From Sebaldella termitidis ATCC 33386 (lineage in GTDB: Bacteria; Fusobacteriota; Fusobacteriia; Fusobacteriales; Leptotrichiaceae), in assembly GCF_000024405.1 (NCBI RefSeq), contig NC_013517.1, positions 2,294,001 to 2,358,000 of the forward strand: a DNA stretch of 64,000 nt, in the 5' to 3' direction. The position numbers were made by a program, and so were the translations under genes. Every line of letters begins with the position of its first letter. Positions within the stretch are counted from its first letter, which is position 1. The notes under the pieces are model-generated. The model ran no database searches. It was not told the origin of the DNA and worked only from the letters and a program-made list of their open reading frames with translations. This document shows positions 14,474 through 18,890 of the stretch, piece after piece.

Positions 14474-14641
14474 TTGAAAATATAAAAAAAGAGTGTATAA
14501 TTATAATGAGTTAGAGTGCATGATTCTAATTATGAAGAATTATTGTAATTTTGTCTAGCATATGTACTCACTCGTAGAGGGAGTGTAAAACAGTGTCATT
14601 TAGAAAAGTAGGGATGTTCTTTTCTAGGTGACATTTTTTTA
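14474..14641 (+). ncRNA. Putative short terminated transcript upstream of the met operon
   Basis: TTGAAA (14474-14479), a 16-bp spacer and TATAAT (14496-14501) could start an RNA near 14508. It ends at a strong terminator: TGTCA-TT-TAGAAAAG pairs with CTTTTCTA-GG-TGACA, then T7 (14594-14640). A hairpin ACTCACTC/GAGGGAGT (14566-14584) precedes it, and its 5' arm can instead pair with GAGTGCAT (14514-14521). A 12-codon frame MILIMKNYCNFV (14520-14558) lacks a good ribosome site. It may be a small RNA or another attenuator; I cannot match it to a known riboswitch. Confidence 0.45.
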
Positions 14642-14683: not shown

Positions 14684-14712
14684 TTTACATATAGATAAAA
14701 ATATACTAAACT
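14684..14712 (+). promoter_or_regulatory. Candidate met operon promoter
   Basis: TTTACA, a 17-bp spacer, then TAAACT. The geometry matches the his promoter at 18651, which has the same -35 core and the same distance to its leader. The -10 is only 4 of 6. Confidence 0.45.
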
Positions 14713-14742
14713 AAGTTATAAATTATTAAAGGTGGAGTAGAG

Positions 14743-14802
14743 ATGATTAATTATAAATATATAAATGACAATATGATGATGTATATGCGGTATAGAGTTT
14801 GA
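14743..14802 (+). CDS. Met leader peptide (19 aa)
   Basis: The short frame reads M-I-N-Y-K-Y-I-N-D-N-M-M-M-Y-M-R-Y-R-V and stops at TGA. Three consecutive Met codons lie at 14773-14781 and a fourth at 14785-14787. AGGTGGAG is placed 7 nt before the ATG. The frame ends in AGAGTTTGA, the same nine bases that end the His leader, and this stop region is segment 1 of the RNA switch. A leader rich in codons for the product of the downstream operon is the defining mark of ribosome-mediated attenuation. Confidence 0.8.
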   Translation: MINYKYINDNMMMYMRYRV

Positions 14803-14911
14803 CCTTTTTATAAAATATAAAAAGCACAGACTCTTTTTGAAGTTTTTAATCTAAAAAGAGCTGTGCCCATAGATAGATGTTCCGGACACGGCTGTGTCCG
14901 GATTTTTTTTT
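14794..14911 (+). promoter_or_regulatory. Methionine attenuator (competing hairpins and terminator)
   Basis: Segment 1 AGAGTTTG (14794-14801) pairs with 2 CAGACTCT (14827-14834), 8 bp with one G-U. Segment 2 (14824-14838) also pairs with 3 (14853-14866), 14 bp with one bulge. Segment 3 AGCTGTG (14859-14865) can pair with CACGGCT (14887-14893), the 5' arm and loop of the terminator. The terminator is TCCGGACAC/GTGTCCGGA, loop GGCT, then T9 (14881-14911). Expected logic: a ribosome stalled at Met codons leaves 1:2 and the antiterminator 3:4; a ribosome reaching the stop hides 1, so 2:3 and the terminator form. Confidence 0.8.
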
Positions 14912-14966
14912 ACAAAATTTAATTATATAACAAATAATCAAATATATATAAAGGATGGTGACAATA

Positions 14967-16238
14967 ATGTCAGAATACAAATTTGAAACATTACAGCTTC
15001 ATGCTGGTCAGGAAGAGGCGGATAAGTCAACGAATTCAAGAGCAGTACCAATTTACCAAACCACATCTTATGTTTTTAACAGTGTGGAGCATGCAGCTAA
15101 TCTCTTTTCGCTGAAAGAAGAAGGAAATATATACAGCAGAATGATGAATCCTACTACGGATATTCTGGAAAAAAGAATAACGGCACTTGACGGCGGAGTC
15201 GGGGCAGTAGCAGTAAGCTCAGGAAGTGCCGCAGTAACATATGCAATTTTGAATCTGGCAGTATCCGGAGATGAAGTTATATCATCAAAGAATCTTTATG
15301 GGGGAACATATAATCTTCTGGCGAATACAATAAAGGATTTTGGAATAACTACAAAGTTTTTTGATCCCGGAAGACCGGAAGATATCGAGAAATTAATAAA
15401 TGAAAAATCAAAGGCAGTATTTATAGAAAGTATAGGAAACCCCAATGCGGATATTACAGATATAGAAAAAACTGCTGAAATAGCTCATAAATACGGACTT
15501 CCCCTGATAATAGACAATACGTTTTCTCCATATCTGTGCAAGCCTTTCCAGCATGGAGCAGATGTAATAGTGTACTCGGCAACAAAATTTCTTGGCGGAC
15601 ACGGGACAACAATAGCAGGACTGGTAGTAGATTCCGGAAAATTTGACTGGAAGAATGAAAGATTCAAAAGCTTTAACGAACCGGATCCCGGATATCACAA
15701 TCTAAAATATTCAGATTTAGGAGAAGCTGCATATATAGCAAAATTAAGAGTGAGGCTTCTCAGAGATACAGGTGCATGTCTTTCACCTTTTAATTCTTTT
15801 CTGATATTACAAGGGATAGAAACACTCTCGCTGAGAATAGACAGACACGTGGAGAATGCTGTAAAAACAGCAGAATATCTGGAAAAGCACCCTAAAGTAA
15901 AAGCTGTAAATTATCCCGGATTAAGCAGCAGCCCTTATAAAAAACTGCAGGAAAAATATCTTCCAAAGGGCGGAGGCTCTATATTTACCTTTGAACTGAC
16001 AGGTGGTCTGGAAGCAGGAAAAAAATTTATTGATTCATTAAAGCTGTTTTCTCATCTGGCAAATGTTGCAGATGCAAAATCTCTTATAATACATCCGGCA
16101 AGTACAACACACAGCCAGCTTACAGAGGAAGAACTGACAGCCTGTAATATAACTCCGGGAATAATAAGAATATCTATAGGTCTGGAGCATATTGATGATA
16201 TAATAGATGATCTGAAGCAGGCTTTGGATAAAATCTAA
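14967..16238 (+). CDS. O-acetylhomoserine sulfhydrylase (PLP-dependent)
   Basis: Makes homocysteine from O-acetylhomoserine and sulfide. The 423-residue protein belongs to the Cys/Met metabolism PLP family: YSRMMNPTTDILEKRI near the N-terminus, SSGSAAVTYAI, and the PLP lysine in VYSATKFLGGHGT. The length and the GQEEADKSTNSRAVPIYQTTSY start favour the sulfhydrylase over cystathionine synthase or lyase. The ATG at 14967 follows AAGGATGGTG; an earlier ATG lies within that site. It is the first structural gene after the Met attenuator, followed by MetF and a MetA of the acetyl type, so the three form a direct-sulfhydrylation pathway. Confidence 0.9.
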   Translation: MSEYKFETLQLHAGQEEADKSTNSRAVPIYQTTSYVFNSVEHAANLFSLKEEGNIYSRMMNPTTDILEKRITALDGGVGAVAVSSGSAAVTYAILNLAVSGDEVISSKNLYGGTYNLLANTIKDFGITTKFFDPGRPEDIEKLINEKSKAVFIESIGNPNADITDIEKTAEIAHKYGLPLIIDNTFSPYLCKPFQHGADVIVYSATKFLGGHGTTIAGLVVDSGKFDWKNERFKSFNEPDPGYHNLKYSDLGEAAYIAKLRVRLLRDTGACLSPFNSFLILQGIETLSLRIDRHVENAVKTAEYLEKHPKVKAVNYPGLSSSPYKKLQEKYLPKGGGSIFTFELTGGLEAGKKFIDSLKLFSHLANVADAKSLIIHPASTTHSQLTEEELTACNITPGIIRISIGLEHIDDIIDDLKQALDKI

Positions 16239-16255: not shown

Positions 16256-17134
16256 ATGAAAATAAAGGATATATATCAAAATAAAAAAGCAGTATTCTCA
16301 TTCGAAATATTTCCTCCTAATGAAAATTTTTCAAGTGAAAAGCTGTACGGGGTAATAGACGAGCTGAGTATACAGAAGCCGGATTTTATAAGTGTTACAT
16401 ATGGTGCCGGCGGAACTACAAAGGGCGGCACCATAGAGATGGCCTCGTATATAAAAAATAAATTAAATATAGAAGCAGTAACGCATCTTACATGTGTGGG
16501 AAGCAGGAAAGACGAAATAGAAAATTTCCTGAATGAGCTGGAAAGGAATAATATAGAAAATATTCTTGCTCTGAGAGGTGATATTCCAAAGGATCAGGAT
16601 GAAAGTATATATGACAGAGGAGACTTTCTGTATGCCTCTGATCTGATAAAGGCGGTCAGGGCTACAAAGAGATTTTCTGTGGGAGGAGCCTTTTATCCTG
16701 AGGTTCATCATGAAAATAATGATCTTATAGATCTGTTTAATTTGAAGAAAAAGGTAGATTCCGGAACTGATTTTCTGGTATCACAGATATTTTTTGACAA
16801 TGAAAGCTTTCTTGATTTTCGTGATAAAGCTGAAAAAGTAGGGATAAATGTACCTTTAGCTGCCGGAATAATTCCTGTAACTAATGCGAAACAGATTAAA
16901 AGAATAACTTCTTTATGTAACTGTAAAATTCCGAAAAAGCTGGAAAGAATACTAAATGCTTATGAGGATAATAATGAAGCAATGTATCAGGCAGGAATAG
17001 CATATGCTACAGAACAGATAATAGAACTGCTTTCTGCCGGCATAAAAGGAATACATATTTATACAATGAATAAGACAAATGCAGTAAAAGAGATTCTGGA
17101 AAATATAAGCAGCATAAGAAAATATTATGAATAA
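16256..17134 (+). CDS. metF: 5,10-methylenetetrahydrofolate reductase
   Basis: Reduces methylene-THF to methyl-THF, the methyl donor for methionine synthase. The 292-residue flavoprotein barrel shows FSFEIFPPN with the catalytic glutamate, SVTYGAGGTTKGGT, HLTCVGSRKDEIE, LALRGDIPKD (flavin contact) and GIKGIHIYTMNKTNAV near the C-terminus. It lies 17 bp after the sulfhydrylase and 21 bp before metA, in one operon under the Met attenuator. No methionine synthase is in the window, so that gene must be elsewhere. Confidence 0.93.
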   Translation: MKIKDIYQNKKAVFSFEIFPPNENFSSEKLYGVIDELSIQKPDFISVTYGAGGTTKGGTIEMASYIKNKLNIEAVTHLTCVGSRKDEIENFLNELERNNIENILALRGDIPKDQDESIYDRGDFLYASDLIKAVRATKRFSVGGAFYPEVHHENNDLIDLFNLKKKVDSGTDFLVSQIFFDNESFLDFRDKAEKVGINVPLAAGIIPVTNAKQIKRITSLCNCKIPKKLERILNAYEDNNEAMYQAGIAYATEQIIELLSAGIKGIHIYTMNKTNAVKEILENISSIRKYYE

Positions 17135-17155: not shown

Positions 17156-18025
17156 ATGTTGATATTAAATAAAAATATGCCTGTAATAGAGGAGCTGAAA
17201 GGAATGATCGATATAAAGACAAAGAACGGAAAGCTTAATGTTTCCAAAAAATCCAAGAAAATTCTGGTATTGAACCTGATGCCCAATAAAGTAAAAACAG
17301 AGTATCATATTCTGAGACTCCTGAACACAAAGAAACCGGATGAAGAGATAGAACCGTTTTTTTTGAAGCTTGATACACATAAATATAAAAATATAGATGT
17401 CGAATATCTTAATGAATTTTATGTATCATTAGAAGAGATAAAAAATCTGGATATTGAAGCAGCTATAATAACAGGAGCACCGCTTGAAAAAATAAAATTT
17501 GAAGAAGTCGCATACTGGGAAGAGCTTAAGGGAATATTTGAATTTATTAATAATCTGAAATCCTCTATTTTTATATGCTGGGGTTCACAGGCAGCATTAT
17601 ATTATTTTCATAATATACCAAAATATGATTATAAACGTAAAAAGTTTGGTGTATTTAAACATAACTGCGAAAACAAATCGAAGCTGTTTGACAGTCTTGA
17701 TAATGAAGATTTCAAAATACCGCATTCAAGATATACTTACATAAAAAGAGAAGATATAAAGAAAAAAAGCAGTCTTGAAATACTTCTTTCAGATGAAAAT
17801 AATGAGCCTGTTATAGTAAAGGATAAAAATAAAATATATATATCAGGACACATGGAGTATGATAAATATAATTTAAGAGATGAATATGTCAGAGATATAA
17901 ATAATAATCTGGAGATAAATATACCTGATAATTATTTTTTGGATAATAAACCGGAAAATTCACCGGCTTTTTCCTGGGAAAAATTTTCAAGGATATTTTA
18001 TTCCAACTGGCTTGAAAGCTTTTAA
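17156..18025 (+). CDS. metA: Homoserine O-acetyltransferase, MetA type
   Basis: Activates homoserine for methionine synthesis. The 289-residue protein has the MetA fold: LNLMPNKVKTEYHILRLL, the ITGAPLE loop, nucleophile Cys141 in FICWGSQAALYYFHN, and HSRYT with GHMEYD at the C-terminal half. Residue 111 is glutamate; work on Bacillus cereus and E. coli MetA showed that glutamate here gives acetyl-CoA use and glycine gives succinyl-CoA use. Acetyl specificity agrees with the O-acetylhomoserine sulfhydrylase at the head of the operon. AGAGAGGAGG lies 7 nt before the ATG. Confidence 0.9.
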   Translation: MLILNKNMPVIEELKGMIDIKTKNGKLNVSKKSKKILVLNLMPNKVKTEYHILRLLNTKKPDEEIEPFFLKLDTHKYKNIDVEYLNEFYVSLEEIKNLDIEAAIITGAPLEKIKFEEVAYWEELKGIFEFINNLKSSIFICWGSQAALYYFHNIPKYDYKRKKFGVFKHNCENKSKLFDSLDNEDFKIPHSRYTYIKREDIKKKSSLEILLSDENNEPVIVKDKNKIYISGHMEYDKYNLRDEYVRDINNNLEINIPDNYFLDNKPENSPAFSWEKFSRIFYSNWLESF

Positions 18026-18704: not shown

Positions 18705-18779
18705 ATGATGACTTTAATAACTATAAATAATAATTCTATAAATAAAATAAGAAAACATCATCATATTGGCAGAGTTTGA
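18705..18779 (+). CDS. His leader peptide (24 aa)
   Basis: The frame starts with two ATG codons after a GGGAGTG ribosome site and reads MMTLITINNN, then SINKIRK-HHH-IGRV, stopping at TGA. Three consecutive His codons are at 18756-18764. It ends with AGAGTTTGA, as does the Met leader. It sits between the his promoter and the attenuator hairpins, 140 bp before hisZ, and is best explained as the sensor of charged tRNA-His. Confidence 0.85.
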   Translation: MMTLITINNNSINKIRKHHHIGRV

Positions 18780-18890
18780 ACCTGAAGTAATTATTGGGAG
18801 CAGACTCTTTTTGAACTTACAATTCAAAATAGTCTGTGCCAGTTTATGAATATATAGGAAATCTGGGCAGAAATGTCCGGATTTTTTTTT
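18771..18890 (+). promoter_or_regulatory. Histidine attenuator (competing hairpins and terminator)
   Basis: Segment 1 AGAGTTTG (18771-18778) pairs with 2 CAGACTCT (18801-18808). Segment 2 also pairs with 3: CAGACT/AGTCTG plus inner TTTTGAA/TTCAAAA (18801-18836). Segment 3 can pair with the terminator 5' arm in two blocks, CTG/CAG and CCAG/CTGG (18834-18842 with 18863-18870). The terminator is ATCTGGGCA/TGTCCGGAT, loop GAAA, running into T9 (18861-18890). Layout and segments 1 and 2 match the Met attenuator. Confidence 0.82.

Follow-up and report, generated by a model that had tools for sequence, protein, structure and literature searches.

A candidate methionine attenuator in Sebaldella termitidis and its Fusobacteriota relatives with exchangeable sensing codons

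Main finding

The metY-metF-metA operon of Sebaldella termitidis ATCC 33386 is preceded by an element that is very probably a ribosome-dependent transcription attenuator reading the supply of charged methionyl-tRNA, and a member of a modular family. This reading is strongly supported by the anatomy of the element, its conservation, covariation, and the match of sensing codons to genes; leader translation, ribosome stalling, and a switch in vivo are what these features predict. Bacterial methionine regulation is usually ascribed to MetJ, SAM riboswitches, or Met T-boxes. The element lies in a window of 64,000 nucleotides (contig NC_013517.1, positions 2,294,001 to 2,358,000) of a 4.49-Mb genome of the Leptotrichiaceae (G000), a family represented here by 33 genomes. 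The host is a termite-gut-type bacterium. Positions are counted from the first letter of the window, and the features placed in it are on the plus strand.

The leader ORF and the operon

As found by direct reading of the sequence, the leader ORF is MINYKYINDNMMMYMRYRV followed by a stop codon, 19 codons in all (14743-14802), with the ATG at 14743 and the TGA at 14800-14802. A Shine-Dalgarno sequence, AGGTGGAG (14730-14737), is kept in G025 and G026, two other genomes of the genus. The putative sensing codons, Met-Met-Met-Tyr-Met, are codons 11-15 (14773-14787), where Met codons 11-13 occupy 14773-14781 and Met codon 15 occupies 14785-14787; the sequence, its conservation, and an ORF count point to them. 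The window has 543 ORFs with lengths of 10-40 codons, and this is the sole one with at least four Met in five codons after the start. Thus, a ribosome site, a leader ORF, and an in-frame run of Met codons occur together at 14730-14802, just as a sequence-only reading of the window had described them. A putative promoter, TTTACA-17-TAAACT (14684-14712; consensus scan, 9/12), aligns with TTTACA..TATACT of the met leader in G024, a further genome of the genus, and the his leader described below is preceded by TTTACT..TATAAT.

The interval from the amidohydrolase gene to the met leader contains another conserved stretch (14474-14640), mostly retained in G025 and G026, with a GTCA..TGAC hairpin and T7 at its end. 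It has a promoter-like TTGAAA-16-TATAAT (11/12), apart from the putative leader promoter. This stretch is possibly a small RNA.

The sequence-only reading assigned the controlled genes to the formation of homocysteine, methyl-THF, and acetylhomoserine. Profile matches agree: metY, O-acetylhomoserine sulfhydrylase (14955-16238, start at 14955 or 14970; TIGR01326, 654 bits, above the cut-off); metF, methylenetetrahydrofolate reductase (16256-17134; TIGR00676, 320 bits, above the cut-off); and metA of the homoserine O-acetyltransferase type (17156-18025), for which NF047918 is the best family at 272 bits, under its cut-off. The downstream genes therefore serve the sensed amino acid, and those of the relatives do so too.

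Alternative pairings and the proposed mechanism

Mutually exclusive pairings run from the leader end to an intrinsic terminator. Segment 1 (14794-14801) overlaps the last leader codons and the stop codon, and would lie under a ribosome at the stop. Segment 2 (14824-14838) is the partner of 1 or of 3, and segment 3 (14853-14866) is the partner of 2 or of 4. Segment 4 (14881-14889; folding and terminator search) is the 5′ arm of the terminator, and segment 5 (14894-14911; sequence, folding, and terminator search) contains the 3′ arm and T9. The 1:2 pairing joins AGAGTTTG (14794-14801) with CAGACTCT (14827-14834) in 8 bp including one G-U, and a further 9-bp helix lies inside it. The 2:3 pairing, GCACAG plus CTCTTTTT with AAAAAGAG plus CTGTGC, has 14 bp and one bulge. 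The 3:4 pairing is AGCTGTG (14859-14865) with CACGGCT (14887-14893), 7 bp. The terminator 4:5 has 9 bp (14881-14889/14894-14902) and is followed by T9 (14903-14911). The 1:2, 2:3, 3:4, and terminator pairings, with their lengths, had been listed in the sequence-only reading, and every one was found where it had been placed. The region folds better than 200/200 dinucleotide shuffles (z -3.4), and a terminator search of the region gave the 4:5 terminator as its sole match, while the shuffles gave 0.0. The pairing order is of his parity with five segments, not of trp parity. This is a small correction to the trp/his-type logic proposed before.

With ample charged Met-tRNA, the ribosome would reach the stop codon and cover segment 1. 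Segments 2 and 3 would then pair, the terminator would form, and transcription would end near 14911. With scarce charged Met-tRNA, the ribosome would wait at codons 11-13, so that its leading edge does not reach segment 1. The edge of a ribosome lies about 12 nt past the first base of the A site. Codons 11-13 finish 12 nt 5′ of segment 1, while the stop codon overlaps it, so a ribosome at codons 11-13 should leave segment 1 free. The 1:2 pairing would then form and leave 3 free for 4, the terminator would be pre-empted, and metY-metF-metA would be transcribed. That stalling at the Met codons frees segment 1 had been predicted from this stretch alone; conservation, compensatory changes, a His-codon sister, and the codon-gene match, all described below, argue for it.

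The switch was examined by equilibrium folding of transcripts truncated directly 3′ of segment 4 and the loop, comparing a ribosome edge at the codon run with one at the stop. Ribosomes at the codon run favoured 3:4 in 23 of 29 attenuators. The mean gain was +4.3 bp of 3:4 vs +0.4 in shuffles (Wilcoxon p 9e-6, for 29 cases that are not independent). Two members, tyrT086 and met083A, were omitted as the wrong terminator had been picked. At the met locus, 3:4 amounted to 9.8 bp in the stalled state, which folds as 1:2 plus 3:4, vs 5.2 bp in the at-stop state, which folds as 2:3; for this locus alone, 17% of shuffles gave a difference as high. In an earlier simulation, with transcripts that stopped short of the terminator loop, the effect had the same direction but was smaller, and 3% of shuffles were as high at the met locus. 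The switch was absent from equilibrium folding in 6/29 members, including the met leader of G024, metN087, and metG092. This may reflect equilibrium folding itself or wrong boundaries.

When the leader was folded with no ribosome on it, the Met-type members mostly retained 3:4 (mean of 10.5 expected 3:4 pairs), while the majority of the His/Pro/Tyr-type members did not (mean 4.8), a contrast that was noticed after the fact and serves as a lead only. It raises the tentative and rather doubtful idea that two conditions would turn Met members ON, namely stalling at Met codons during elongation and a shortage of fMet-tRNA that blocks initiation. If true, such an untranslated-ON design would suit methionine, the sole amino acid required for initiation as well as for elongation. 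Shared ancestry may be another reason for the pattern, given that the His sister in the window, folded with no ribosome, is like the Met members. Against the attenuator reading itself, internal initiation at the leader Met codons is conceivable, AUG being a start codon as well.

Conservation in the genus and a His-codon sister

The metY gene is present in four genomes of the genus (G000, G024, G025, and G026); at the search threshold, the remaining 29 family genomes gave none. In all four, leader and attenuator are retained. They are in the same place in G025 and G026. In G024, metY comes after metE, and a leader MIKYKYFNNNMMMYMRV with its attenuator precedes metE-metY-metF. The MMMYM run is invariant among the four leaders, while the amino acids around it vary (N3K, I7L/F, D9N); the peptide is not conserved outside the codon run and segment 1.

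A his operon lies 4 kb 3′ of the met operon, within the window. It has a leader with His codons, MMTLITINNNSINKIRKHHHIGRV (18705-18779; conserved in G024, G025, and G026), and an attenuator (18771-18890) found by covariance model R1. The core that it has in common with the met element runs AGAGTTTGA, GCAGACTCTTTTTGAA, AGTCTGTGCC, and terminator; in the his attenuator the core elements read AGAGTTTGA, CAGACTCTTTTTGA, CTGTGCC, and terminator. A search of the 33 family genomes with the letters of segments 1 and 2 as an exact pattern matched the met and his leaders only, and the reversed control matched nothing. Pattern scanning of genome contigs gave only Sebaldella/Fusobacteriales loci, Vibrio ruber, and a Lachnospiraceae repeat, the last two of which were judged to be chance. 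Matches with other spacers, such as one at 3766961 of G000 (L183), were rejected as unrelated stretches with no leader.

Where the met and his paralogues differ within 3:4 or the inner 1:2 helix, pairing is preserved. On the alignment, 97.9% of the cells of these two helices are paired, vs 32-56% with the partner slid. Fourteen cells are changed on both sides. Related genomes had been named as the test of the methionine reading; the Met codons are retained in 4/4 genomes of the genus, G000 included, and the covariation exceeds that of 500 shuffles, of which none was as high. The pair count of the terminator is weak (76.6% on alignment A3) because MAFFT shifts the met terminators by one column.

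Relatives across the Fusobacteriota

Covariance models R1 and R2, built from the met and his elements, were searched in 98 Fusobacteriota genomes. A covariance search for relatives of the leader at met genes had been suggested in the sequence-only reading, and it found them in the genus and across the phylum: further Met and Met/Cys leaders with attenuators occur in G000, G025, and other genera. One Met/Cys leader of G000, MKVHYIIDKNNLMMCMC (C1:3447710-3447828; L030, reverse complement 1600-1800), precedes cysK and the gene of a metQ-type lipoprotein, a locus reported as cysK-metQNI, and is also found in G025. Another, MENKINIINYNMCMCSRRV (C1:538372-538494; L031, reverse complement 1440-1630), is followed by a sulfite-reductase-like gene, an arylsulfotransferase-like gene, and a sulfonate-type ABC transporter. 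In genus g23 of another family, the leaders MNTPYVTVNKPNMMMYMCMRV and MSCFEITIKSAVMMCMCMRV precede metA. In genus g25 of that family, MVNSRIGQLNMLMMMLW precedes metY or homoserine dehydrogenase (hom), and leaders of the form M(R/K)N..FRQLNMMMMLWKGL precede metN (metNIQ) and the methionyl-tRNA synthetase gene metG. Between the metY and the metN/metG leaders of g25, the 2:3 pairing shows compensatory changes (AACAGACTCGT/ACGAGTTTGTT vs GGCAGACTCAT/ATGAGTCTGCC). At two loci of this genus (L196 and L197), an MMMM leader and attenuator were seen 5′ of methionyl-tRNA synthetase. A survey of metY loci added genus g13, whose leader MFNKAMKTTMMNMMPLGVGTKN has the five-segment plan in unrelated sequence, with 3:4 being ATCTCCC:GGGAGAT.

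Very Met/Cys-rich short ORFs, beginning LGCMCMMDMCMEMHM and MMMCRMCMCMMMC, also lie 5′ of metY in G083 and G085 (L099, 1265-1384; L100, 1042-1164). The five-segment plan has no clear fit there, and both were omitted from the counts. In G086, YYYYY leaders were seen before tyrS and an amino-acid carrier gene, and an FWYFYYF leader before DAHP synthase (L190, L191, and L188). R1 matches in G060 and G068 were set aside as chance; they lie within or after unrelated genes and have no leader.

Sensing codons follow the downstream gene

At least three Met/Cys in the last 12 codons of the leader were found in 14/14 attenuators at Met or sulfur genes and in 0/14 others. The g13 cases, having been found through their Met codons, were left out of this count. 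The count gives p = 2.5e-8, in which independence is overstated since the cases share ancestry. The non-Met attenuators have His before his genes or an amino-acid transporter, Pro before putP, Tyr before tyrS, and FWYFYYF before DAHP synthase; the Trp case is weaker. In summary, codon identity follows the function of the downstream gene in 28/28 cases examined, with the Trp and one Tyr case weaker. As read from sequence comparison, the family is one structural core with exchangeable codon runs, namely Met, Met plus Cys, and His, and more distantly Pro, Tyr, Trp, and aromatic. By varying the codon run while the RNA core stays, the family amounts to a natural codon-swap experiment.

The same match bears on the idea that a protein or small RNA antiterminates at the hairpins, or that termination is partial and constitutive, while the leader peptide is either idle or active in trans. 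Alternative hairpins and terminators do serve many factors, and another leader peptide, peTrpL, acts in trans (PMC7298713). Neither the agreement between codons and genes nor the lack of peptide conservation outside the codon run and segment 1 fits this idea, which I regard as improbable.

SAM riboswitches and T-boxes

In other genera, nine loci have SAM-I directly 5′ of metY, and none of the nine yielded a Met leader. This use of SAM-I in related genera would favour a metabolite-binding riboswitch (for SAM, Met, or homocysteine), with the hairpin pair as expression platform and the short ORF incidental. So would the filing of the related trpB motif of Rfam as a strong riboswitch candidate (PMC11109978). 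However, the SAM riboswitch model RF00162 has no match at the met locus, and the met element has no Rfam match even at E<=1. The strictly retained parts are the sensing codons and the pairing segments only; the shared core carries His codons at his genes, and the codon run shifts with the gene. A riboswitch is slightly less probable still than factor binding. Least probable of all, to the point of being barely credible, is a Met T-box, in which uncharged tRNA would bind the leader RNA directly. The family is T-box-like in being amino-acid specific and in preceding biosynthesis, transport, and synthetase genes. Nevertheless, the T-box model RF00230 has no match at the met locus or elsewhere in the window, the single T-box of G000 is elsewhere, and in-frame codon runs with a Shine-Dalgarno sequence and a stop codon are unexplained in a T-box.

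In G000, the one SAM-I precedes metK and the one T-box precedes an asparagine-synthase-like gene (genes named by eye from the protein). I infer that, in this host, metK is the gene left under SAM sensing, while synthesis and uptake follow Met-tRNA. In the attenuator reading, Fusobacteriota have predicted leader-translation control at genes where sister genera have the SAM riboswitch, down to methionyl-tRNA synthetase. The sensed signal should therefore be charged tRNA, not SAM.

Comparison with known systems

The his operon attenuator hisL resembles the met element in having sensing codons near the end of the leader ORF, successive alternative hairpins, and an intrinsic terminator. In hisL of E. 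coli and Salmonella, stalling favours B:C and D:E type pairings. Segment A of hisL has no clear counterpart in the met leader, and the met element has five segments, so that antitermination should be favoured when the leader is untranslated. SAM-I (S box) also controls metY in other Fusobacteriales. However, its aptamer senses SAM, and it is absent from the met locus.

Methionine leader peptides are known from earlier predictions. For metBA of C. jejuni, a leader peptide MetL was predicted and ribosome-stall attenuation proposed (PMC3847290). Ribo-seq showed initiation at MetL and a second Met-rich ORF, CJsORF19 (MMYQMR) (PMC11955535). Like the met element, MetL is a short ORF with Met codons before Met genes; unlike it, MetL has three Met codons, belongs to a different phylum, and is limited to C. 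jejuni, C. coli, and C. doylei. Its published descriptions, compared by text only, contain neither alternative pairings nor covariation. For metNIQ of S. lividans, a Met/Cys leader metL with the cluster CMCRRMC was proposed (PMC8079986). It shares a Met/Cys codon cluster in a leader before a Met transporter but is leaderless and has no typical terminator (PMC8079986). No Met attenuator emerged from a comparative study of Actinobacteria (PMC1262725), and no earlier description of one in Fusobacteriota was found in the open-access literature of PMC. The sequence-only reading had supposed that the element may be undescribed and had known of no such attenuator. Since MetL and metL were predicted earlier, although with no such anatomy described, this goes too far; the element also belongs to a phylum-wide family instead of standing alone. 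What is new, as judged from genome comparison, is a structured, covarying, phylum-wide Met attenuator in a family with exchangeable sensing codons.

The 'trpB motif' (RF04312) was proposed in 2024 as a riboswitch candidate at amino-acid transporter and trp genes of Firmicutes and Fusobacteria, and its authors did not exclude an attenuator (PMC11109978). It resembles the present family in having a hairpin (2:3 here) followed by a terminator, with an antiterminator in the right shoulder of P1; unlike the family, its published model has no leader ORF and no segment 1. RF04312 did not match the met element, and its score for the his element, 30.9 bits, is below the cut-off of 59. Sub-threshold matches in 47/96 Fusobacteriales genomes coincide with leaders; the best in the order was 52.4 bits, with the cut-off unreached. 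All 30 look-alikes inspected (L153-L182) have a leader ORF preceded by a Shine-Dalgarno sequence, 24 of them with His runs. His, Pro, Trp, and aromatic codons were seen in look-alike leaders before matching genes. These results suggest that the Fusobacteriota look-alikes, as distinct from proven RF04312 members, are leader-peptide attenuators. Thus, the Met attenuator family offers an explanation for Fusobacteriota elements that resemble the orphan trpB motif.
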